From Candidatus Gallimonas merdigallinarum (GTDB taxonomy: Bacteria; Bacillota; Clostridia; Christensenellales; Borkfalkiaceae), in assembly GCA_904373325.1 (NCBI GenBank), contig CAJFFP010000001.1, positions 50,654 to 114,653 on the forward strand: a stretch of 64,000 bases of DNA, given 5' to 3'. The notes under the pieces were generated by a model. That model was not told the DNA's origin. It saw only the letters and a program-made list of their open reading frames with translations, and made no database searches. This document shows positions 181-55,169 of this stretch, piece by piece. The position numbers and the translations under genes were made by a program. How positions within the stretch are numbered: position 1 is the stretch's first letter; the number at the start of each line of letters is the position of its first letter.

Positions 181-1011
181 TTAAATCGAATTAAAACAAA
201 TGTTCGTAAAATAGACGCTTTCATTCACTTTACCCCCGTTTCCGAGGAAAATAACCCCTCTGTTTTCCTTTTCTTTGCATTTTTTTGTAAAACAAATGTT
301 CGGATTTTGTTCGGGTTGCGGGTGGTCAGCTATCCCATTTTTTCGCCGTACGAGCTGCTCCGCAAGCACGCTTTTCAGGCGGTTTGCCGTTCCCTCCCCG
401 CCGTCGAACACCCTGCACCCGTAAAAACGGGCGATTTCCTGCCGAAAAAAGACGTAATGGGTGCACCCGAGCACGACGCCGTCGTACCGTCCTGCGGGCA
501 GGTGGTCGGAAATGGTCAGCTTATCCCCGCGGGTCAGCGCGCGCTCGATCGCCCCCGCCAGATACGGCAGCGCGCACACCGTGAAGTCGCACCGCGGATA
601 GCGCGCAAGCAGGCGGCGCAGGCGGTCGCTCTCCGCCGTGCGCGGCGTGGCAAGCACGAGAACGCGCGAACACTGCAACGCGGCGGGACGGACGGCAGGC
701 TCCACCCCCACCACGGGAAACGGGAATGCGGCGCGCATCTGCTCGGCACAGACGGCGGTGGCGGTATTGCAGGCAAGCACCGCGGCGTCCACCCCGATTC
801 GCTCAAAACGGCGGAGTGCTTCGGAGACGAACCGCACGATCTCCCCGCGCGGGCGGCTCCCGTAGGGAGCGCGGGCGTTGTCGCCATAATAATAAAAACG
901 GCAGTCGGGAAGTTTTCCGACGCACGCTTTCAGAACCGTCAGCCCGCCGATCCCGCTGTCAAACACGCCTACGCGGACGACGCCGCCTATCTCCTTTTCC
1001 CGTTCCCCCAT
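181..1011 (-). CDS. murI: Glutamate racemase
   Basis: Converts L-glutamate to D-glutamate for peptidoglycan in the cytoplasm. The N-terminal glycine-rich motif VGVFDSGIGGLT, the catalytic cysteine motifs ACNTATA and GCTHY, and the pair of acid/base cysteines they contain are all present. I chose the ATG at 1011 (276 residues), because the family begins a few residues before VGVFDSGIGG; an in-frame ATG at 1056 would add 15 residues unlike the family. The extreme C-terminus, after the GGEGTANRL segment, is low in similarity and Phe-rich, possibly an extended tail. It is divergent from rpsT, and the two share an overlapping promoter region. Confidence 0.93.
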   Translation of the reverse strand: MGEREKEIGGVVRVGVFDSGIGGLTVLKACVGKLPDCRFYYYGDNARAPYGSRPRGEIVRFVSEALRRFERIGVDAAVLACNTATAVCAEQMRAAFPFPVVGVEPAVRPAALQCSRVLVLATPRTAESDRLRRLLARYPRCDFTVCALPYLAGAIERALTRGDKLTISDHLPAGRYDGVVLGCTHYVFFRQEIARFYGCRVFDGGEGTANRLKSVLAEQLVRRKNGIADHPQPEQNPNICFTKKCKEKENRGVIFLGNGGKVNESVYFTNICFNSI

Positions 1012-1063
1012 GGCATGATCCCCAAGATTTTGAAATTTTTTTGTGATAAGCGACAAAAAACAG

Positions 1064-1092
1064 TTTACAAGCAGTGTATTTTATGCTAAAAT
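1064..1092 (+). promoter_or_regulatory. rpsT promoter
   Basis: TTTACA (1064-1069), 17-base spacer, TAAAAT (1087-1092). The predicted leader is about 40 bases and carries GGAAGGAG upstream of the GTG start at 1139. Confidence 0.7.
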
Positions 1093-1107
1093 AGCAAAGG
1101 TTATCAA
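1078..1107 (-). promoter_or_regulatory. Probable murI promoter
   Basis: Minus-strand TTGATA (1102-1107) and TAAAAT (1078-1083) with an 18-base spacer. It overlaps the oppositely directed rpsT promoter, so the two transcription units may compete for polymerase. Confidence 0.5.
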
Positions 1108-1138
1108 GAATAAAGCCATTTGGAAGGAGTAAATAATC

Positions 1139-1405
1139 GTGCCCAACATCAAATCTGCGAAAAAGCGCGTGCTGGTTACCGAAAAGAAGACGAAAGAGAA
1201 CAAGATGATCAAGTCCGCGCTGAAAACGACCATCAAGAAGTTCCTTGCGGCTGTCGAGGCTGGCGACAAAGAGACTGCTAACGCGCTCTATCCCGAGACG
1301 GTTTCGGCAATCGATTCCGCGGCAAGCAAGGGAATCCTGCACAAGAATAACGCCGCGAACAAGAAAGCGAAGCTCGCAAAGAAGCTCGCTTCTATCTCCG
1401 CGTAA
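1139..1405 (+). CDS. rpsT: 30S ribosomal protein S20
   Basis: Eighty-eight residue, very basic helical protein that binds 16S rRNA in the body of the small subunit. The N-terminal [11 protein letters not shown] and the C-terminal [13 protein letters not shown] segments are the usual S20 signatures, and the length is normal. Translation starts at GTG, with a strong GGAAGGAG site about ten bases upstream. It is a single-gene transcript between its own promoter and a terminator. Only the promoter zone is shared with divergent murI. Confidence 0.95.
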
Positions 1406-1423
1406 CCAAATTTAAGCATAAAA

Positions 1424-1451
1424 AAGCGTCCGCAGATCGGGCGCTTTTTTT
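1424..1451 (+). terminator. rpsT terminator
   Basis: AAGCGTCC pairs with GGGCGCTT (one G-T pair) around a 7-base loop, followed by a run of T. Confidence 0.85.
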
Positions 1452-1463
1452 CGTGCCCGGAAA

Positions 1464-1516
1464 TCCCCCTCTCCGCCGCACACTCTTTTCACACTCAGTC
1501 CCCCTCTCCGCCGCAC
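1464..1516. repeat. 18-bp direct repeat, two copies
   Basis: TCCCCCTCTCCGCCGCAC occurs identically at 1464-1481 and 1499-1516. The second copy abuts the first stem of the candidate structured RNA. Confidence 0.8.
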
Positions 1517-1633
1517 GCGGATAAAACTCCGTCCCGCCGATTTACGGCAGTTCCCTTTCAAACCCGCTTGCGGGTACCTGAAACACGGTAAAATATCCGC
1601 AATATTATCCCCTGCAAACGCAGGGCTTTTTTT
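1517..1633 (+). ncRNA. Candidate structured small RNA ending in a terminator
   Basis: In this intergenic stretch the plus strand folds into a closed multi-branched shape. GCGGATA (1517-1523) pairs perfectly with TATCCGC (1594-1600); inside, CCGT (1529-1532) pairs with ACGG (1585-1588); two hairpins follow, GCCG-AUUUA-CGGC (1536-1548) and ACCCG-CUUG-CGGGU (1562-1575). A rho-independent terminator sits directly after (1610-1633). No coding frame or known riboswitch consensus was recognised. It lies upstream of, but transcriptionally insulated from, the polyamine operon. No clear promoter of its own is visible, so it may come from read-through of rpsT. Confidence 0.35.
1610..1633 (+). terminator. 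Terminator ahead of the pot operon
   Basis: CCCTGC-AAAC-GCAGGG followed by CTTTTTTT, a textbook intrinsic terminator. It ends whatever transcript comes through 1460-1610. Confidence 0.88.
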
Positions 1634-1678
1634 GTGAAAAATTTTTTACAAAATTTTTAAATTTATGCCCGCAAACAG

Positions 1679-1707
1679 TTGACATATCTTTTCCTATATA
1701 TTATGAT
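1679..1707 (+). promoter_or_regulatory. Promoter of the regulator-potABCD operon
   Basis: TTGACA (1679-1684), 17 bases, TATGAT (1702-1707). It starts a leader of about 100 bases before the regulator gene. The leader is AT-rich and could hold the operator of the regulator. Confidence 0.82.
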
Positions 1708-1814
1708 AGCACGCGTTGAGTTTATTCTTATTAAACTTTTCGTTTATTTTTACGAGAGTTCCGTGAAAAGCGACCAAAAGTTTACGGATATTAAACTCCG
1801 CACAAGGAGAACTT

Positions 1815-2348
1815 ATGCAGTTAGGCGGAAAAATTCGGGAACTCAGGCAGCAGTACAACCTGACGCAGGGCGAGCTTGCCGACCGATGCGAACTGACGAA
1901 GGGGTATATCTCCCAGCTTGAAAACGACCTTACAAGCCCCTCCATCGCTACGCTCGTCGATATTCTCAACGCCCTCGGGACGACGCTTGCGGACTTCTTC
2001 CGTGAGGACGCGGAAGAAAAGATCGTCTTTACGCAGGAAGAGTACATTGAAAAGCGTTCGGACGGAATGGTCTGGAATTGGGTCATTCCAAACGCGCAGA
2101 AAAACATGATGGAGCCCGTGCTCGTGGAGCTGGAAGCGGAAGCCTCCACACAGGTGGACTTCCCCCACGACGGCGAGGAATTCGGGTACGTGCTCGAAGG
2201 ACGCATCGCCATCGTGTGCGGCGGAAAGTCGCACGTGGCAAAAAAAGGCGAAAGTTTTTATTTCACCGCAAACCGCGAACACCGCATCTTTAACAAAAGC
2301 AAGGGCAGGGCGAAGTTCCTCTGGATCTCCACGCCCCCGAACTTTTAG
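1815..2348 (+). CDS. HTH (XRE) transcriptional regulator with C-terminal cupin, PuuR-like
   Basis: A 177-residue protein with an N-terminal XRE-type helix-turn-helix (about 5-60, LTQGELADRCELTKGYISQLE) and a C-terminal cupin barrel (about 105-175, with FPHDGEEFGYVLEGRIAIVCGG). This architecture is that of PuuR-type regulators, which sense a small ligand in the cupin. It is the first gene of the operon, 33 bases before potA, so a role in repressing polyamine uptake in response to polyamine is inferred. The start is preceded by AAGGAG. It could sense another small molecule. Confidence 0.85.
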   Translation: MQLGGKIRELRQQYNLTQGELADRCELTKGYISQLENDLTSPSIATLVDILNALGTTLADFFREDAEEKIVFTQEEYIEKRSDGMVWNWVIPNAQKNMMEPVLVELEAEASTQVDFPHDGEEFGYVLEGRIAIVCGGKSHVAKKGESFYFTANREHRIFNKSKGRAKFLWISTPPNF

Positions 2349-33845: not shown

Positions 33846-35075
33846 TTATTTGAGTTTTTTCTGATCGAGCAGAGCTTTCACCTTGATGGGAAGCCCGAAC
33901 AGGTTGATGAATCCCTCGGAATCCTTCTGCGAATATGCGCCGCCGTCGTCGGAGAAGGTGGCGATGTCCTCGCTGTACAGCGAATAAGGAGAGGTGATGC
34001 CCGCGTTCGTCACGTTGCCCTTATAAATGCGGAGTTTCACGTCGCCCGTGACCGTTTCCTGCGTTTTGGAAACAAACGCGGAGAGCGCCTCGCGGAGCGG
34101 GGTGAACCACTGTCCGTCGTACACCATTTCGCCGAACTTGACGGCAACGAGCTGCTTATAGTGCATCGTCGCCTTGTCAAGGCAGACGGTCTCCAAAAGG
34201 CGGTGCGCCTCGTAGAGAATGGTGCCGCCGGGCGTCTCGTACACGCCGCGCGACTTCATACCGACGAGACGGTTTTCCACGAGGTCGGCAAGTCCCACGC
34301 CGTTTTCGCCGCCGATTTTATTCAGCGTTTCGACGATCTCGACCGCGCCCATCTCCTTGCCGTCGATCGCGGTGGGAATACCCTTTTCAAAGTGAATGGT
34401 CACATAGGTGGGCTTATCGGGCGCCTGCATGGGAGATACGCCCATTTCGAGGAAGCCCTCTTTCTCGTACTGCGGCTCGTTTGCGGGATCTTCGAGATCA
34501 AGCCCCTCGTGCGAAAGGTGCCACAGGTTTTTATCCTTGGAATAGTTGGTCTCGCGGTTGATTTTCAGAGGAATGTCGTGCGCCTCCGCGTACTCGATCT
34601 CCTCTTCGCGGCTCTTGATGTTCCAGATACGCCACGGGGCGATGATGGTCATTTCGGGCGCAAACGCCTTGATGGTCAGCTCGAAACGCACCTGATCGTT
34701 GCCCTTGCCCGTGCAGCCGTGGCAGATCGCGTCCGCGCCCTCTTTCTTGGCAATATCGACGATCGCCTTTGCGATCACGGGGCGCGCAAACGACGTGCCG
34801 AGCAGATATTTATCCTCATACACCGCGCCCGCCTGCATGGTCGGGAAGATGTAATCCTCGACAAACTCCTTTTTCAGATCGAGCACGTACAGCTTGGAAG
34901 CGCCCGTCTTTTTCGCCTTCTCTTCCAGCCCGTCAAGCTCCGTTCCCTGCCCGACGTCGCCCGAAACGGCAATGACTTCGCAGTTATCGTAATTCTCTTT
35001 CAGCCACGGGATAATAATGGAAGTATCCAACCCGCCCGAATATGCCAGAACCACTTTTTTGATCTTTTTTTCCAT
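33846..35075 (-). CDS. argG: Argininosuccinate synthase
   Basis: Condenses citrulline and aspartate with ATP. PP-loop [13 protein letters not shown], then [15 protein letters not shown] use ATG 35075 (409 residues), since GAGGAA precedes it; the ATG at 35102 is only five bases past the -10 box and could not be in the mRNA. It is the first gene of the arginine operon. The next enzyme, ArgH, is not in the window. Confidence 0.95.
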
Positions 35076-35107
35076 AACGATTTCCTCGCTCAAATTTTTC
35101 ATTTGCT

Positions 35108-35136
35108 ATTATATAAAGAGCGGGCGCATTCGTCAA
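35108..35136 (-). promoter_or_regulatory. Arginine operon promoter
   Basis: Minus-strand TTGACG (35131-35136), 17 bases, TATAAT (35108-35113). The only strong promoter seen ahead of the run argG to thiI. Confidence 0.85.
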
Positions 35137-35149
35137 GCGTTTGCACCCG

Positions 35150-35250
35150 TTTTTATAAAAATTTTTTTATAATTTTTGCATATTTATACGTTATAATGTA
35201 TATTATTCTTATTTTATGCAATATTTTCTGTATAGACAGAGCGATTATGC
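35150..35250. promoter_or_regulatory. AT-rich region upstream of argG, possible ArgR sites
   Basis: About 100 bases of very AT-rich sequence directly upstream of the -35 box, with half-sites such as TGCATATTTATAC and TTATTTTATGCA that loosely resemble ARG boxes. No exact 18-bp ARG box was found. Confidence 0.3.
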
Positions 35251-35285
35251 ACGTTGCGCGCGATCTGAGCGAAAACTGCGGCGGG

Positions 35286-35747
35286 TCAATCCTCCCCTTC
35301 TTCCTCAAACGCGGGGAAGATGCGGCGCATATCGTCCTCGGTGAACGCAACTTCGTAGCGCTTCGTAAAGGGAACGCGGCGGAGGAAAACGAACTTATCT
35401 TCCGAATCCTGCGTGCGGAACGTTCCGACGAACTTTCCCTTTTTCACCTTTATCGCCACGCAGCCCATTCTCGCGTCATAGGTAAACGTTTTGCGCTTCG
35501 TCTTGATATGCACGACGAGGTCGGTCACTTCATATCCGACGACCAATCCCATGGAGACGTAGAGCGCATAAACCCCGTATAAAATCAGATAGGCGACGAT
35601 GAGGACGGGCGCGATGATGCAGAACGCGACCGACCCGCCGAACGCGAAGATAAGGCAGACCATGATCGCGGGGATCATGACGCAACTGAATATGACGAAT
35701 AGTTTTTTAATGCGCCGCACATAGTTCGCGACGATTTCTTTTTCCAT
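35286..35747 (-). CDS. Two-helix membrane protein of unknown function
   Basis: Not recognised. 153 residues: a short basic N-terminus, two hydrophobic helices (about 17-37 and 40-65), then a strand-rich domain with basic motifs and an acidic tail (EEEGED). It follows the thioesterase gene by about 40 bases and is probably co-transcribed. The design is like that of the 22970-23572 product. Confidence 0.7.
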   Translation of the reverse strand: MEKEIVANYVRRIKKLFVIFSCVMIPAIMVCLIFAFGGSVAFCIIAPVLIVAYLILYGVYALYVSMGLVVGYEVTDLVVHIKTKRKTFTYDARMGCVAIKVKKGKFVGTFRTQDSEDKFVFLRRVPFTKRYEVAFTEDDMRRIFPAFEEEGED

Positions 35748-35789
35748 GAGTATCCCCCGAATTGCAAACCCTGAAAAGCCTGCGCGCGT

Positions 35790-36524
35790 TCAGGCTTCAA
35801 ACCAGACGCGGAACTGCGACAAAACGTCCTCTCCGCAGCGGATCTCGCAGAGCGCGCCGTCCTCGGCGTCCTCGCGCCGGAGCGCAAGCTCGCTCCCCTC
35901 CTTCGCCTGCTTTTCGTACGTGATCTGAAACGCCTTCACCTTTTTGCGGGAAAGCTCGTCCATCGTAAAGCAGTCGAAATAAAAATCGCCGTAGCGGGCG
36001 TTATTGGCATGGAAATAGTGGTCGCAGTGGCTGTTTGCGACCGTCATGCGGTACATTTCCCGCCCGTTTTTGATATGCGGAACTTTCCAGCTCTGCGGCA
36101 CGGCGGCTTTCTCGTCGCGGTACGGGCATTTTTCATGTGCTTCCCCCATATGTTCGGGGCGGAGCAGCGCAAACGTATTCAGATCGACAAGACACCAACG
36201 CGAAGCCGCCGCCGCGACCTCCTCGTCCCCGACGCGCACGCGGTAATCGCGTTCGAAAAAGACGTGACGGGGCGTAAGCGGCCACGTTTCCACCGTCAAC
36301 GACTCCCCGAGCAGCACGGGGCGGCGCAGTTCGCAATAAGTATTGACGACGATAAACCCAAAGTTCTTGGGTTTCAGATCTTCGTACCCGAATCCGAGTT
36401 CGTCCGCGCTCAGGCAAGCGGATTCCTGCACCACGCCGAGAAGCGAGGAAGCGCGGAGTTCGTCCTTGTAATCGAAGTCCGAATAACGCAGATCGTACGT
36501 CTTGAAATGTGCATAGCGACTCAT
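35790..36524 (-). CDS. Acyl-ACP thioesterase
   Basis: Hydrolyses acyl-acyl carrier protein to free fatty acid. The 244 residues form two hotdog folds as in the bacterial FatA-like family: LRYSDFDYKDELRASSLLGVVQE at the N-terminus, and in the second half NSHCDHYFHANNARYGDF with the Asn/His of the active site. The start codon is six bases after the TATACT -10 box with no ribosome site, so the mRNA is probably leaderless. Confidence 0.88.
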   Translation of the reverse strand: MSRYAHFKTYDLRYSDFDYKDELRASSLLGVVQESACLSADELGFGYEDLKPKNFGFIVVNTYCELRRPVLLGESLTVETWPLTPRHVFFERDYRVRVGDEEVAAAASRWCLVDLNTFALLRPEHMGEAHEKCPYRDEKAAVPQSWKVPHIKNGREMYRMTVANSHCDHYFHANNARYGDFYFDCFTMDELSRKKVKAFQITYEKQAKEGSELALRREDAEDGALCEIRCGEDVLSQFRVWFEA

Positions 36525-51755: not shown

Positions 51756-52989
51756 ATTTGCGCACCTGACCGTTCCCGCGCACGATAAATTTGTAGGAAG
51801 TCAGTTCCCGCAGCCCCATCGGACCGCGCGCGTGCAGTTTCTGCGTGGAGATGCCCATCTCCGCCCCGAACCCGAATTCAAATCCGTCGGTAAAGCGCGT
51901 GGACGCGTTGTGATAGACGCAGGCGGAATCGATTTCTTTGAGGAATTTTTCCGCCGCCGCCCTATTCTCCGTCACGATGCTCTCGCTGTGGTGCGTGGAA
52001 TGTTCGTTGATGAAGGCGATCGCCTCCTCCACGCCGCGCACGATTTTAACGGAGATCTTCATCGCGAGATACTCGGTATAAAAATCCTCCTCCGCCGCGG
52101 GTTTAACTGCGGAGACGAGCGCGCACGCCGCTTCGTCACCGACAATTTCAACGCCCTTTTCCATGAGCGGCGCCAGAAGCTCCGCCAGATGCGCTTTTGC
52201 GAACTCCTCGTCCACGACGAGGCTCTCGCAGGCGTTGCACACGGAAATGCGCTGCGTTTTGGCGTTGAGCAGAATGCGCTTTGCCATTTCAAGGTCGGCG
52301 TTCTTCTCCACATAGACGTGGCAATTGCCCGTTCCCGTCTCAATCACGGGGACGGACGCGTTTTCCAGCGTGCTCTGAATGAGCGACGCGCTCCCGCGGG
52401 GAATGAGCACGTCCAACAGTCCCTTCTGCCGCATAAATTCGCGCGCGCCCTCGCGCGTGCAGTCCTCCAAAAGCTGAATGAACTCCGGATCGAAACCGCC
52501 CGCTTTGATCGCATCCTTCATAACGCGCACGATGGCGGCGTTGGAAGCGTAGGCATCCTTGCTCCCGCGCAGGACCACGGCGTTGCCGCTTTTCAGGCAC
52601 AGTCCGACCGCGTCCGCCGTGACGTTGGGGCGCGCCTCGTAAATGATGCCGACCACGCCGAACGGCACGCGCACGCGGGCAATATCCAAACCGCCCGCCG
52701 TCGTGTGCTCCTCGATCACCTCCCCGACGGGACAGGGCAGCGCCATCAGCTGACGAAGCCCCTCGGCGATCCCCGCAATGCGGCTCTCGGTGAGCACAAG
52801 GCGGTCGCGGAGACTATCCTGACGGGTAAAGCGGTTGAGATCCTCCGCGTTCGCCGCCAGAATTTCGCTCTGGCGCGCTTGGAGCGCGTCCGCGGCGAGC
52901 GCAAGCATTTTGTTTTTATCTGCCTCGGAAGAAAATGCCGCGGCATTCGCGTGTTCTTTCGCAAGCCGACACGTCTCGGAAATGGTCAT
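51754..52989 (-). CDS. proA: Gamma-glutamyl phosphate reductase
   Basis: NADPH reductase of proline synthesis. VPFGVVGIIYEARPNVT and RGSKDAYASN bind the cofactor; the catalytic cysteine is in SVCNACESLVVD. I chose ATG 52989 (411 residues), since AGG sits seven bases before; the ATG at 53004 has no site. A single gene; proB is not in the window. Confidence 0.94.
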   Translation of the reverse strand: MTISETCRLAKEHANAAAFSSEADKNKMLALAADALQARQSEILAANAEDLNRFTRQDSLRDRLVLTESRIAGIAEGLRQLMALPCPVGEVIEEHTTAGGLDIARVRVPFGVVGIIYEARPNVTADAVGLCLKSGNAVVLRGSKDAYASNAAIVRVMKDAIKAGGFDPEFIQLLEDCTREGAREFMRQKGLLDVLIPRGSASLIQSTLENASVPVIETGTGNCHVYVEKNADLEMAKRILLNAKTQRISVCNACESLVVDEEFAKAHLAELLAPLMEKGVEIVGDEAACALVSAVKPAAEEDFYTEYLAMKISVKIVRGVEEAIAFINEHSTHHSESIVTENRAAAEKFLKEIDSACVYHNASTRFTDGFEFGFGAEMGISTQKLHARGPMGLRELTSYKFIVRGNGQVRK

Positions 52990-53015: not shown

Positions 53016-53044
53016 ATTATACAACAATGCTGTCCGATTGTCAA
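53016..53044 (-). promoter_or_regulatory. proA promoter
   Basis: Minus-strand TTGACA (53039-53044), 17 bases, TATAAT (53016-53021). Confidence 0.85.
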
Positions 53045-53061: not shown

Positions 53062-53778
53062 TTAAAGATTTAAAACAGTGTATTGTAATTTAAATTTGTA
53101 TTCTTTCCTTTTTTTCTTATCTTCTCCATAATCCAACTCGTAAGTATAATCTTTTACTTGATAAAAACCCTGATCGTAGTAAATCACTTCCTTTGTCATG
53201 CGATACTCTTTATAATCAAAAATCAACAGTCGTACGGGTTTTTGTTCATATCCTGCATTGAGCAATGCCCGATTGTTTGCGGTTTCTTTTTGATCGCCGG
53301 ATTTACCTTCTCCCGAAAAAAGATATACTCCGCTTTGAAGCCAGCGATCATGATAGACATAGTAATCCGGATCGGTATTAACAACCGAAATAGCAATAAT
53401 TTCCGTAGCTGTTACATAGATCCCTCTTATTTTAAAATATTCGTTGCGAGGTATATAAACCCTCTTTTGCAGCCATTCAAAAGATCTAGGAAGGGCACGA
53501 CTATAATTTGTTCGTTGCGCGCCATTGGGCTCGTCGAGCGGCGAAAGCGGCGAAGCCCCATCAAGGTTTTGCAAAATATATTCTTGCGCATTCGGATTTT
53601 CAAAATGTGACGGTCGTGTGGTTTCTTTTTCAGAAAATTGACGATATCCTAAAATCCTTTTCCCGTCTTTGATAAACTCTATTGTTAATTTCTTTGTTGT
53701 CTCATTTACGCCTGTAACGCTTCCCTCACCATAAATTGGTGAAACTACTTTTTCGCCGATTAAATCCCGATCAGTCAT
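53062..53778 (-). CDS. SRA (YDG)-like domain protein with N-terminal Tudor-like module
   Basis: The 238-residue, AT-rich gene has two parts. Residues 5-48 (GEKVVSPIYGEGSVTGV...GKRILGY) look like the SH3/Tudor-like tail of UvrD-type proteins. Residues 115-235 have the order of conserved motifs of an SRA domain, which flips out modified cytosine in other proteins: SGEGKSGDQKETANNRALL, KPVRLLIF, YYDQGFYQV. No nuclease motif is visible. It overlaps the VWA gene by eight bases. The SRA assignment rests on motif spacing seen by eye. Confidence 0.55.
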   Translation of the reverse strand: MTDRDLIGEKVVSPIYGEGSVTGVNETTKKLTIEFIKDGKRILGYRQFSEKETTRPSHFENPNAQEYILQNLDGASPLSPLDEPNGAQRTNYSRALPRSFEWLQKRVYIPRNEYFKIRGIYVTATEIIAISVVNTDPDYYVYHDRWLQSGVYLFSGEGKSGDQKETANNRALLNAGYEQKPVRLLIFDYKEYRMTKEVIYYDQGFYQVKDYTYELDYGEDKKKRKEYKFKLQYTVLNL

Positions 53779-54388
53779 CGTTTTCCTCCTTCCGGCGCAA
53801 AAACGCGCTGCGCATCTCCGAGATGCTGCAACTCATATGTTCGAAACACGCTTCAACGCCCGCGGCATCGTGACTGAATTGCATCGTCTGACGTGCGGGA
53901 ATCCCCATACTGCGCGCCGCGCCGAAGGCGTCGATATTTGCGCCGAAAAAGAGAAACTCCCATCCGTACTTTTCCTTCTTCTGCTCAATCAGGTTTTTTA
54001 CACGTTCCAAAGTATATTCGCGGCTGGCATTTTCCATCCCGTCGGTGGTGATTGCAAAGATCACTTTGGACGGACGATCGGATTCGAACATTCGGGAATA
54101 ACGCAGTCCGGCAGCGTCGATGGTTTTCCCGACCGCATCGAGGAGCGCAGTTGACCCGCGCGCAAAATATGTATCCTCGGTAAGCGGCGGGATCTCGTTG
54201 ATGTCCACGGTGTCGTAGAGAAGATCATATTCGTCATCGAATAATACGGTCGTGACGCGCATTTCCCCTTCCGGCTTGCGCTGTTGTTCAATCAGCGTGT
54301 TATATCCGCCGATCGTGTCCTCCGTCAGCGGTGCCATAGAGCCGCTTCTGTCCAGAATGATAAAAAGTTCTGTGAGATTTTCTTTCAT
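53771..54388 (-). CDS. von Willebrand factor A domain protein
   Basis: A 205-residue soluble VWA domain with a complete metal-ion-dependent adhesion site: DRSGSMAPL (13-21), the threonine in ARGSTALLDAVG and the aspartate in TTDGMENAS. Such cytoplasmic proteins often work as scaffolds or with AAA+ ATPases; none is encoded here. It overlaps the HTH gene by four bases and the SRA-like gene by eight, so it is the middle member of a three-gene operon. Confidence 0.82.
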   Translation of the reverse strand: MKENLTELFIILDRSGSMAPLTEDTIGGYNTLIEQQRKPEGEMRVTTVLFDDEYDLLYDTVDINEIPPLTEDTYFARGSTALLDAVGKTIDAAGLRYSRMFESDRPSKVIFAITTDGMENASREYTLERVKNLIEQKKEKYGWEFLFFGANIDAFGAARSMGIPARQTMQFSHDAAGVEACFEHMSCSISEMRSAFLRRKEENDD

Positions 54389-54747
54389 AATTCCTCCTTA
54401 TATTCCCGCAAATAAATGCGATAAAGTATCTTTTGTAAACGCTCCGCAAGCTCCGATTTTTCTTCGCCCGATTTTCCGTTCGCCGCCAGAATTGCTTTCT
54501 GAATAAACTCCGCTTCCTCCAAAGAGAATTTCTTCATCGATAAATAAAACCCTTTCGGCGTCTTTACGATCGGATACCCCAGATCCTGCAAGAAACGTAT
54601 ATTGCGCCCGACCGTTTTCCGATCGCAACACCCCTTTGCGTCTGCAATCCAATCCGCAATTTTCGTCTGCGTCATCGGATGCTGTTCGTCCGTATTCGAT
54701 TCCAGAATTTTCAGAACTGCAATAATGGAATTTTTCTTACACGCCAT
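54385..54747 (-). CDS. Small helix-turn-helix regulator (WYL-type N-terminal domain only)
   Basis: 120 residues. The start (KKNSIIAVLKILESNTD, TQTKIADWIADA, DRKTVGRNIRFLQDLGYPI) is the winged helix found at the N-terminus of WYL-domain regulators; the WYL sensor domain is absent. A helical C-terminus (FSLEEAEFIQKAILAANG) may dimerise. First gene of the operon, with GGAGGAGG upstream. It may control the shared element at 54786 and 55143. Confidence 0.7.
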   Translation of the reverse strand: MACKKNSIIAVLKILESNTDEQHPMTQTKIADWIADAKGCCDRKTVGRNIRFLQDLGYPIVKTPKGFYLSMKKFSLEEAEFIQKAILAANGKSGEEKSELAERLQKILYRIYLREYKEEL

Positions 54748-54785
54748 GTCCTCCTCCTTTGCGTATCCTTACACATCTCATAAAT

Positions 54786-54812
54786 ATTATAACAAACCAT
54801 TTGTACCAAAAA
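54786..54812 (-). promoter_or_regulatory. Shared promoter element, copy 1 (HTH-VWA-SRA operon)
   Basis: ATTATAACAAAC, four bases, TGTACCAAAAA on the plus strand; on the minus strand it contains TATAAT as -10. Twenty-three of 27 bases match copy 2. The -35 region is poor, so activation by a regulator is likely. Confidence 0.6.
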
Positions 54813-54879
54813 TAGCCCTTATCAAAAATAATAGTAATTTAAAAATAATCTTTTCCGTTTATATATACGATGGAAATCA

Positions 54880-55113
54880 TCATTTCTCCTTCTTTTTTTC
54901 CTCTTTTTCTTTTGCGTCGCGGTTTCCATTATCGCCGTCTTTCTTCTTTTCCAGCTCCTTGTAATAGAGACGCAAGTTAAAGAATGTTACAATCACGCAT
55001 ATAATCAGTGAGAACACGACAAAGCCGATCCAATTTTCCGTCAGATTGATCGTCATGACGATCCCGAATGCGGCGAGTGCATAAAAAATCATCGTAGAAT
55101 AGACATACTTCAT
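54880..55113 (-). CDS. Small two-helix membrane protein with charged tail
   Basis: Not recognised. 77 residues: two hydrophobic helices (about 5-24 and 28-50) and a tail rich in Lys, Glu and Asp (ELEKKKDGDNGNRDAKEKEE). It has its own copy of the promoter element. GGGGG lies before the ATG. Shares AT-rich composition with the SRA operon. Confidence 0.6.
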   Translation of the reverse strand: MKYVYSTMIFYALAAFGIVMTINLTENWIGFVVFSLIICVIVTFFNLRLYYKELEKKKDGDNGNRDAKEKEEKKKEK

Positions 55114-55142
55114 AAATTGATATTAAACCCCCTTTTATTTTA

Positions 55143-55169
55143 ATTATAACAAACACGCTGTACCAAAAA
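55143..55169 (-). promoter_or_regulatory. Shared promoter element, copy 2 (small membrane protein)
   Basis: Same as copy 1 except for the four central bases (ACGC instead of CATT). It includes TATAAT on the minus strand. Confidence 0.6.

Follow-up and report, generated by a model that had tools for sequence, protein, structure and literature searches.

A cassette between yebC and proA

The window analyzed here is a stretch of 64,000 nt from a Clostridia bacterium and contains, between yebC and proA, a cassette of four minus-strand genes (Table 1). An earlier note on this DNA had described three overlapping genes and an additional 77-residue protein, and all four ORFs were found in place, with overlaps of 4 bases between the HTH and VWA genes and of 8 bases between the VWA and SRA genes. 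The GC content of the whole block is 41.7%; for comparison, 51 ORFs of 120 aa or more, selected greedily, average 55.7% (sd 4.9). The AT-richness reported previously holds for the block as a whole but not for the VWA gene (52.3% GC). No tRNAs occur in the window, and nothing between positions 52500 and 56500 reached an Rfam gathering score.

Table 1. Coordinates of the cassette genes, promoter elements and border within the window
Feature	Position	Strand	Basis or form
77-aa two-helix membrane protein with charged tail	54880..55113	-	ORF
120-aa winged-HTH regulator without WYL sensor domain	54385..54747	-	ORF, PADLOC/Pfam
205-aa VWA protein, metal site intact	53771..54388	-	ORF, alignment, fold
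238-aa Tudor-like + SRA protein	53062..53778	-	ORF, Pfam, fold
SRA domain, residues 118-232 of the 238-aa protein	53083..53427	-	Pfam
Promoter element 1, of the membrane-protein gene	55143..55169	-	TTTTTGGTAC-N8-TG-N-TATAAT
Promoter element 2, of the HTH-VWA-SRA operon	54786..54812	-	TTTTTGGTAC-N8-TG-N-TATAAT
Right border of the island on the minus strand, formed by the promoter of proA (TTGACA-17-TATAAT)	53016..53044	-	

Pfam, NCBIfam, PADLOC and PHROG scans named no nuclease among the four cassette proteins, as had been claimed. PADLOC returned only its WYL model and a weak 2TM match (E 0.018); a CBASS with a 2TM effector was rejected on this weak match and on the absence of a cyclase from the four proteins. 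MoxR-vWA and TerY-P systems were also rejected, as no MoxR ATPase, phosphatase or kinase partner lies between yebC and proA.

The PADLOC WYL model matched the HTH protein at 3.8e-6, with residues 12-87 aligned to model positions 7-76 of 229. Only this N-terminal part was matched and the WYL domain is missing, in agreement with the earlier description of a WYL-type HTH without sensor; classification as a full WYL regulator was rejected on the same ground. The Pfam HTH_11 match (E 0.00086) fell under its cut-off. The fold of the VWA protein was confirmed, and an alignment of its sequence with 12 relatives (13 in all) shows no variation at the metal-site residues D13, S15, S17, T80 and D116; the site is intact as proposed. 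This protein also matches phrog_7371 (1e-63), a phage family of unknown function. The 77-aa protein has hydrophobic stretches at residues 4-22 and 29-47, with a credible match in one other of 101 genomes, three weak matches (E 5e-4 to 6e-3) being left out. A VWA match at a contig edge (L020) and a 51-residue SRA match (L153) were set aside.

The 238-aa protein gave a Pfam SAD_SRA match (E 5.8e-7, residues 118-232) of 29.8 bits, against a cut-off of 30.7; in a six-frame search with neighbours in frame the score was 31, above the cut-off, and the copy from the related genome G086 matched at E 3.3e-10. The predicted model is of modest quality, at a pLDDT of 67.5, with residues 47-91 below 50 and block means of 70-90 from residue 121 onwards. 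All 22 Foldseek matches at E<=0.001 were chains of SRA-containing proteins; with the profile match, they make the SRA assignment firm. The earlier note had held that its reading would fall if no structural match to SRA were found; the fold is real, and this first refutation test was therefore passed. Residues Y142, D144, S155, G156, E157 and G158 are invariant in five aligned SRA sequences and may correspond to positions of the UHRF1 base-flipping pocket. The protein is likely, by prediction, to read chemically modified DNA, probably a cytosine derivative. It occurs in two of 151 genomes searched, its own counted, and matches phrog_15103 (1.6e-8), another phage family of unknown function; phmmer against the PDB yielded only E 1.2 and 1.7, and a search of phage and plasmid records gave zero matches. 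The SRA part of the earlier description stood; its Tudor-like start needs a correction, in that Pfam calls Tudor in relatives (which include PcrA/UvrD-type Tudor parts) and not in the 238-aa protein itself.

A promoter element that tracks the regulator

The two 27-bp elements are identical at 23 positions. As reported before, they contain TATAAT and no good -35; the extended -10 (TGn) had been missed, and the form is TTTTTGGTAC-N8-TG-N-TATAAT. With up to three mismatches the general form has two matches in the window, whereas 100 shuffles gave a mean of 0.01 and none contained two. The exact element is present in four of 103 genus genomes, with two copies in each (backward control, 0), and it is these four that score highest with the HTH profile (159-170 bits; the next genome scores 138). 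Element and regulator are linked across the genus genomes, and the co-regulation claimed earlier is supported because the element tracks the HTH. Since the two co-occur, the HTH is also predicted to bind the element.

The second regulated gene encodes a membrane protein in two of the four element-bearing genomes. In the other two, G028 and G015, it contains a stretch that appears Tudor-like by eye, although Pfam does not call Tudor; G015 has the HTH and the element, with no VWA or SRA match. A 210-aa protein of locus L227 was likewise labelled Tudor-like by eye. For this protein and the G028 and G015 genes just named, Pfam gave Trm112p (0.037), TerY_C (0.036) and DUF3553 (0.019).

The element proved usable as a search key and led to sister cassettes, some of them on viral contigs. 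In three of three viral-contig loci, two of which are near-duplicates, an HTH relative (52-53% identity) has the element at its own promoter, and some contigs carry the same HTH and element with HNH nuclease cargo (L228). On four of seven viral contigs, the exact element has no adjoining HTH of the cassette's family. The alignment of 16 promoters leaves out L229, a near-duplicate of L228, and a second pattern match in L155 on the minus strand.

BrxR, CapW, PafBC and DriD are WYL-type regulators of defence and damage genes. The cassette HTH shares with them the winged-HTH part, and differs in having no WYL sensor domain. The available parts of the sources describe promoters without a -35 in which the -26 motif of PafBC, or the site of DriD, keeps a fixed distance from the -10 (PMC11804915; preprint PMC12340889), and the -35-less promoters of the cassette likewise have their site at a set distance from the -10. 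By this resemblance the control may be activation; autorepression of an extended -10 promoter is a possible alternative.

Insertion site and sister islands

The insertion site is vacant in 14 of 17 readable relatives, and the cassette was for this reason considered acquired, as the earlier note had claimed. It is probably mobile; regulator and element are also carried on viral contigs. Larger islands occur at the same site in G086 and G028, both containing HTH and VWA genes. The G086 island also has an SRA gene, a two-helix protein and extra genes, with the Tudor-like and SRA parts split between two genes; its EVE part matches residues 4-152 of VcaM4I at 2e-10, and not the HNH part (the matched PDB code is identified as VcaM4I in the available part of PMC7897488). 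The G028 island lacks an SRA gene, and a PF18491 SRA match lies on another contig of that genome. The window's own genome also gave a weak PF18491 match (E 0.0355), on its contig 18.

No nuclease was named in the scanned proteins of the G086 and G028 islands, a set that does not include the 293-aa, HTH and VWA proteins of G028. Six proteins of relatives had no PHROGs match at E<=0.01, and the best PADLOC match among seven was E 0.0062. In G073 the same site holds a different insert, a PDDEXK_4 nuclease gene. The exact four-gene set was found only in the window's genome, with G086 as the nearest version; the conserved neighbourhood that the earlier note had proposed as a check is present in two other genomes as HTH and VWA at the same site, but not as the full set. 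Its overall reading stood for acquisition, co-regulation and SRA fold, and in part for the neighbourhood.

A candidate nuclease-free conflict system

In bacteria, SRA and EVE domains are mostly known from nucleases against modified phage DNA, which they direct to their targets, as in the modification-dependent (type IV) restriction enzymes MspJI, ScoMcrA, TagI and VcaM4I. The cassette resembles these enzymes in its SRA fold, and G086 in its EVE part, but there is no nuclease in the protein or the operon, and the partners of the reader are an HTH protein, a VWA protein and a membrane protein; membership in type IV restriction was rejected on the absence of the nuclease, despite the fold. SRA/EVE readers stand here without a nuclease, among a regulator, a promoter element and a small membrane partner. 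Defence is favoured by gene context, because relatives adjoin nuclease, restriction and recombinase genes, and the preferred reading, given a probability of roughly 0.5, is that of a mobile conflict cassette directed against invaders, which in this version has no nuclease.

In such a cassette the sensorless winged-HTH would control two -35-less promoters, its own operon promoter and that of the membrane protein, via TTTTTGGTAC boxes whose spacing to the -10 is fixed. The SRA and Tudor-like protein would read incoming DNA for a modified base, probably one derived from cytosine, and the VWA is predicted to be a metal-dependent adaptor passing the bound state to the regulator or other partners. 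The 77-aa two-helix membrane protein would be the output, and the response would be transcriptional and perhaps membrane-linked, with a type IV reader operating without its nuclease. A more specific version is put forward only tentatively: modification-triggered signalling immunity without a nuclease, in which SRA/EVE readers act through the VWA on a PafBC-like HTH switch and then on a membrane response, within a modular, partly virus-borne family that exchanges modified-base readers, ADP-ribosylglycohydrolases and nucleases under one regulator type. If true, modified phage DNA would serve immunity as a signal and not only as a target for cutting.

Sister loci tie modified-base readers to ADP-ribose hydrolases, and the cassette might instead derive from ADP-ribose conflict systems, its regulator and VWA coming from macrodomain/ADP-ribosylglycohydrolase loci and still handling ADP-ribosylated macromolecules, perhaps DNA bases carrying ADP-ribose that the SRA pocket would read. 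Among the loci of VWA relatives, 12 of 13 cellular ones outside the islands and 12 of 16 viral ones have a macrodomain gene, a glycohydrolase gene or both on the same stretch. Within 1.5 kb of short-HTH genes, an ADP-ribosylglycohydrolase was found at 8 of 13 places and an SRA at 6 of 13, some queries being themselves derived from the tested loci, against 0 of 17 for each at control places with frames of 298-623 aa. (The 13 places leave out the second HTH of G086, G004:C19:15683 and G076:C9; one long-frame control, L162 in G004, has a glycohydrolase match about 3 kb off, beyond the limit.) The available part of one study describes systems built around a glycohydrolase that also have vWA and WYL/Nudix regulators (PMC9503650), to which the VWA and HTH relatives in sister loci are comparable; the cassette, in contrast, combines a VWA and a sensorless HTH part with an SRA reader. 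Neither enzyme is encoded in the cassette or in the G086 and G028 islands, and PF03747 had zero matches in the window's genome (G000, 92.6% complete), G086 and G015. A glycohydrolase-centred system was rejected on the missing gene, and the derivation appears doubtful. In the openly licensed literature, nothing was found joining an SRA domain with ADP-ribosylglycohydrolase, or SRA domain, von Willebrand, restriction and operon.

It is quite unlikely that the cassette is a type IV restriction system acting in trans, where Tudor-SRA would mark modified DNA and recruit a nuclease or helicase that belongs to the host or is encoded at an unlinked place. Restriction enzymes use SRA and EVE as readers, some relatives have PcrA/UvrD-type Tudor parts, and others adjoin a GIY-YIG gene (L152), the HNH cargo of L228, or, as a Tudor-SRA in L166, a Schlafen-group-3 helicase and an ADP-ribosylglycohydrolase-HsdM fusion; however, the cassette itself has no nuclease, and its regulated membrane protein and VWA would be left unexplained. 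A role outside defence, whether in regulation of methylated DNA of the cell itself or as a prophage-derived lysogeny/superinfection module, is very improbable. It would accommodate the serine recombinases next to HTH operons that carry this element on viral contigs, the occurrence of the exact element close to another phage family's repressor, and the two phage-family matches of SRA and VWA, but no phage genes were named around the island, which yebC and proA flank, and the same site takes a nuclease gene in G073. Least probable is a decaying fragment without function: the other two HTH-VWA islands at the site are larger, yet in the cassette none of the four overlapping frames is broken, both promoters match the element exactly and the residues of the metal site are preserved.

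Two further systems were compared through the available parts of their descriptions. System 4 joins EACC1 and a caspase with variable domains including SAD and vWA (PMC7159879); a membrane component and the SAD and vWA repertoire are shared, whereas the cassette has no recognised caspase or EACC1 and encodes SRA and VWA as separate genes. RptR, like the cassette HTH, is a small regulator of a defence island, and differs, by description, as a repressor whose binding sites are TAGCTA repeats and whose target is a type I restriction island (PMC12255303).

The cassette and its site between yebC and proA

The cassette comprises overlapping HTH, VWA and SRA genes behind one promoter and a further gene, for a 77-residue membrane protein, behind a promoter of the same type; the positions of all four ORFs, the overlaps between genes and the close similarity of the two elements agree with the earlier note. 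No nuclease is encoded. That note's picture of an AT-rich block holds for the proA-yebC stretch as a whole (41.7% GC; a greedy choice of 51 window ORFs of at least 120 aa averages 55.7%, sd 4.9) but not for the VWA gene, which has 52.3% GC and is therefore not AT-rich. The island, in a 1.56 Mb assembly of 38 contigs, is bounded by a hairpin with a T run 3' of yebC (recognized by eye) and by the proA promoter (12/12 matches). Two other AT-richer stretches of the window are included in the table.

A reader fold and an adaptor fold with its metal site are present in the cassette. The proposed SRA identity of the 238-residue protein was borne out by a Pfam profile (SAD_SRA, 5.8e-7, residues 118-232) and by Foldseek, where all 22 matches at E<=0.001 were chains of SRA-containing proteins (SUVH5, SUVH6, SUVH9, KRYPTONITE, UHRF1, MspJI, ScoMcrA, and TagI), the query model having been built from five sequences (pLDDT 67.5, pTM 0.58, residues 47-91 below 50). 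Sequence-only comparison agrees weakly (SUVH5 0.016, ScoMcrA 0.1). The first 50 residues are probably Tudor-like, as judged from relatives matching PcrA_UvrD_tudor (L149, 3.9e-5; viral L166, 3.4e-4); Tudor-domain Foldseek matches of the model itself were weak (E 0.36 and above). The 205-residue protein has a confidently predicted VWA fold, and an alignment of it with 12 relatives (13 sequences) shows the metal site (D13, S15, S17, T80, D116) conserved throughout. The 120-residue HTH protein stops before the expected start of a WYL domain, and a PDB search with a profile of 10 short HTHs gave weak matches only. In the 77-residue protein, two stretches are hydrophobic and the tail is charged.

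yebC was found in 91 of 101 genus genomes, and 20 of these regions, mostly those with the closest yebC, were fetched. proA was also seen in 17, which were taken as readable; L124 (contig edge), L126 and L132 (proA not found) were not counted. Fourteen of the 17 lacked an island, their aligned yebC and proA ends lying 18-244 bases apart; the cassette is an insertion at a position that these relatives leave vacant. The remaining three carried other inserts, a PDDEXK_4 nuclease gene in L123 and ABC-F-like genes (named by eye; 56-57% GC) in L128 and L134, and the gap therefore behaves as a hotspot. At one empty site (L118, genome G066) a terminator-like stem 3' of yebC overlaps the proA -35 box.

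HTH-VWA islands occupy the same site in two further genomes, G086 and G028. The larger G086 island reads yebC, two-helix protein, HTH, a 292-aa protein of no recognized family, acidic membrane protein, second HTH, VWA, a 333-aa protein, SRA, proA; that of G028 reads yebC, HTH, a 293-aa protein, acidic two-helix protein, VWA, proA. The 333-aa protein has a Tudor-like start, a List_Bact repeat and an EVE part; Pfam called only the repeat, and EVE was called from a match (2e-10) to residues 4-152 of VcaM4I, which are EVE and not the HNH part (PDB 6yex; PMC7897488).

Features located in this analysis
Locus	Positions	Feature	GC
Cassette		SRA gene	37.7%
Cassette		VWA gene	52.3%
Cassette		HTH gene	44.1%
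Cassette		membrane protein gene	40.2%
Window	1001-2000	AT-richer stretch	0.47
Window	34501-36000	AT-richer stretch	0.50
L067	7447-12751	G086 island	
L123	5496-6506	insert at yebC-proA site	39%
L156	3052-5737	ADP-ribosylglycohydrolase-short HTH-SRA operon	
L157	2625-5483	ADP-ribosylglycohydrolase-short HTH-SRA operon	
L158	341-3260	ADP-ribosylglycohydrolase-short HTH-SRA operon	
L230		ADP-ribosylglycohydrolase-short HTH-SRA operon	
L166	2988-8299	viral Tudor+SRA locus	
L227	145-1712	viral HTH operon	
L228	4918-6715	viral HTH operon	

The promoter element and its putative regulator

Four of 103 genus genomes contain TTTTTGGTAC-N8-TG-N-TATAAT as an exact match, twice each, and the backward control gave none; a fifth genome (G041) has a match with one mismatch. 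These four genomes are also those with the best HTH matches (window's genome G000, 165.5 bits; G086, 169.6; G028, 170.3; G015, 159.3; the next genome, 138.1). One copy precedes the HTH gene in each. The second precedes the two-helix protein in G000 and G086 and, on another contig, a 318-aa (G028) or 187-aa (G015) frame, both of which contain, by eye, a Tudor-like stretch. For G015 this placement presupposes an inner start, since the frame as called starts 5' of the element. It is thus very probable that the cassette's HTH protein acts at the element.

Among 16 aligned promoters, selected for TTTTG-N15-TATAAT, 14 have TGn, -35 matches reach at most 2/6, and two classes are seen, TTTTGGTAC (n=10) and TTTTGTCC or TTTTGACC (n=6). 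The selecting pattern was absent from 303 kb of other loci; four short-HTH loci (L159, L160, L161, L164), whose element differs, were left out. Repression of an extended -10 promoter by the HTH protein is possible, but fixed spacing without a -35 box also describes PafBC and DriD promoters (PMC11804915, PMC12340889), and by this analogy activation of the element promoters by the HTH protein would be favored.

Relatives in ADP-ribose-linked loci

The HTH profile finds matches in 43 of 103 genus genomes. Frames are short (<=160 aa) at 16 places, one of them truncated at the edge of its contig, 184-252 aa long at five and at least 298 aa long at all others; the WYL domain in long frames was assigned from their length. 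For 13 of the 16 short places, which are related loci, the neighbors within 1.5 kb include ADP-ribosylglycohydrolase (8), SRA (6) and the matching Tudor part (4), counts that arise partly by construction because some queries came from the same loci; at 17 places with 298-623-aa frames all three counts were zero. In the control genome G004 a glycohydrolase match lies about 3 kb away (L162), beyond this range. Pfam agreed independently on ADP_ribosyl_GH (L156, 3.5e-62; L157, 1.3e-64; L160, 3.4e-39) and matched the SRA family PF18491 in L156 (3e-4), L157 (1.2e-3), L158 (5e-4), L155 (2.4e-3) and L163 (2.5e-12), the last alone passing the curated cut-off. L156-L158 share the order glycohydrolase, HTH, SRA with C-terminal Tudor, and with L230 they form a recurring hydrolase/modified-base-reader pairing; L155 has HTH, a membrane protein with charged tail, and zinc finger+SRA. 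PF18491 was found at 26 places in 24 of 103 genomes (seven above cut-off), with a short HTH within 1.5 kb of five. Only two of 30 yebC control loci had a short HTH, both being the islands themselves.

PF02182 is confined to the window's genome and G086 among the 103. Relatives of the SRA protein are few, with six loci in the genome collection (from two peptide patterns; one is G086) and one viral locus; their neighbors include a NUDIX gene (L149), serine recombinases (L150, L151) and a GIY-YIG gene (L152). The viral locus (L166) encodes, in order, Tudor+SRA, a Schlafen-group-3 helicase and a single-protein ADP-ribosylglycohydrolase-HsdM methylase fusion; the helicase has a nuclease-like start by eye.

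Of the 151 genomes searched, 17 gave VWA matches. Twelve of 13 fetched non-island cellular loci (exception L076) and 12 of 16 viral loci, near-duplicates included (exceptions L056, L062, L065, L066), have a macrodomain and/or glycohydrolase gene on the same stretch. Regulator and adaptor therefore both have relatives in ADP-ribose-linked loci. Neither gene occurs in the window's cassette or the G086 and G028 islands; PF03747 was not found in G000, G086 or G015, and its two matches in G028 lie outside the island. The cassette has its putative modified-base reader in the place of such genes. A DinB-like polymerase gene (named by eye) adjoins VWA relatives in L061, L063 and L076; the three are mutually similar, and in L061 and L063 there is a macrodomain gene close by as well.

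Proposed function and mobility

The cassette may be a conflict system (probability roughly 0.6), in keeping with the defense role raised in the earlier note. The SRA domain probably reads a modified base in DNA; the VWA protein might then pass on this state, a tentative step, and a role of the 77-residue protein as effector is somewhat more doubtful. Each single domain is already known, and SAD and vWA appear together among the variable domains listed for another system (PMC7159879). A search of open-licence papers found none that describes an SRA-VWA-HTH cassette or pairs SRA with ADP-ribosylglycohydrolase. The cassette would recombine modification sensing with WYL-like control while lacking both nuclease and WYL sensor.

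Scanning viral contigs with the HTH profile gave three loci (L227-L229), two of them near-duplicates. In all three the HTH promoter has the element, and two serine recombinases lie downstream. L227 has as cargo a membrane protein whose end is Tudor-like (by eye), L228 and L229 an HNH nuclease (3.8e-16). Seven viral contigs carry the exact element, these three and four without an HTH of this family, three of which (L231, L233, L234) belong to one phage family. In those three the element lies near an XRE-type repressor gene (by eye).
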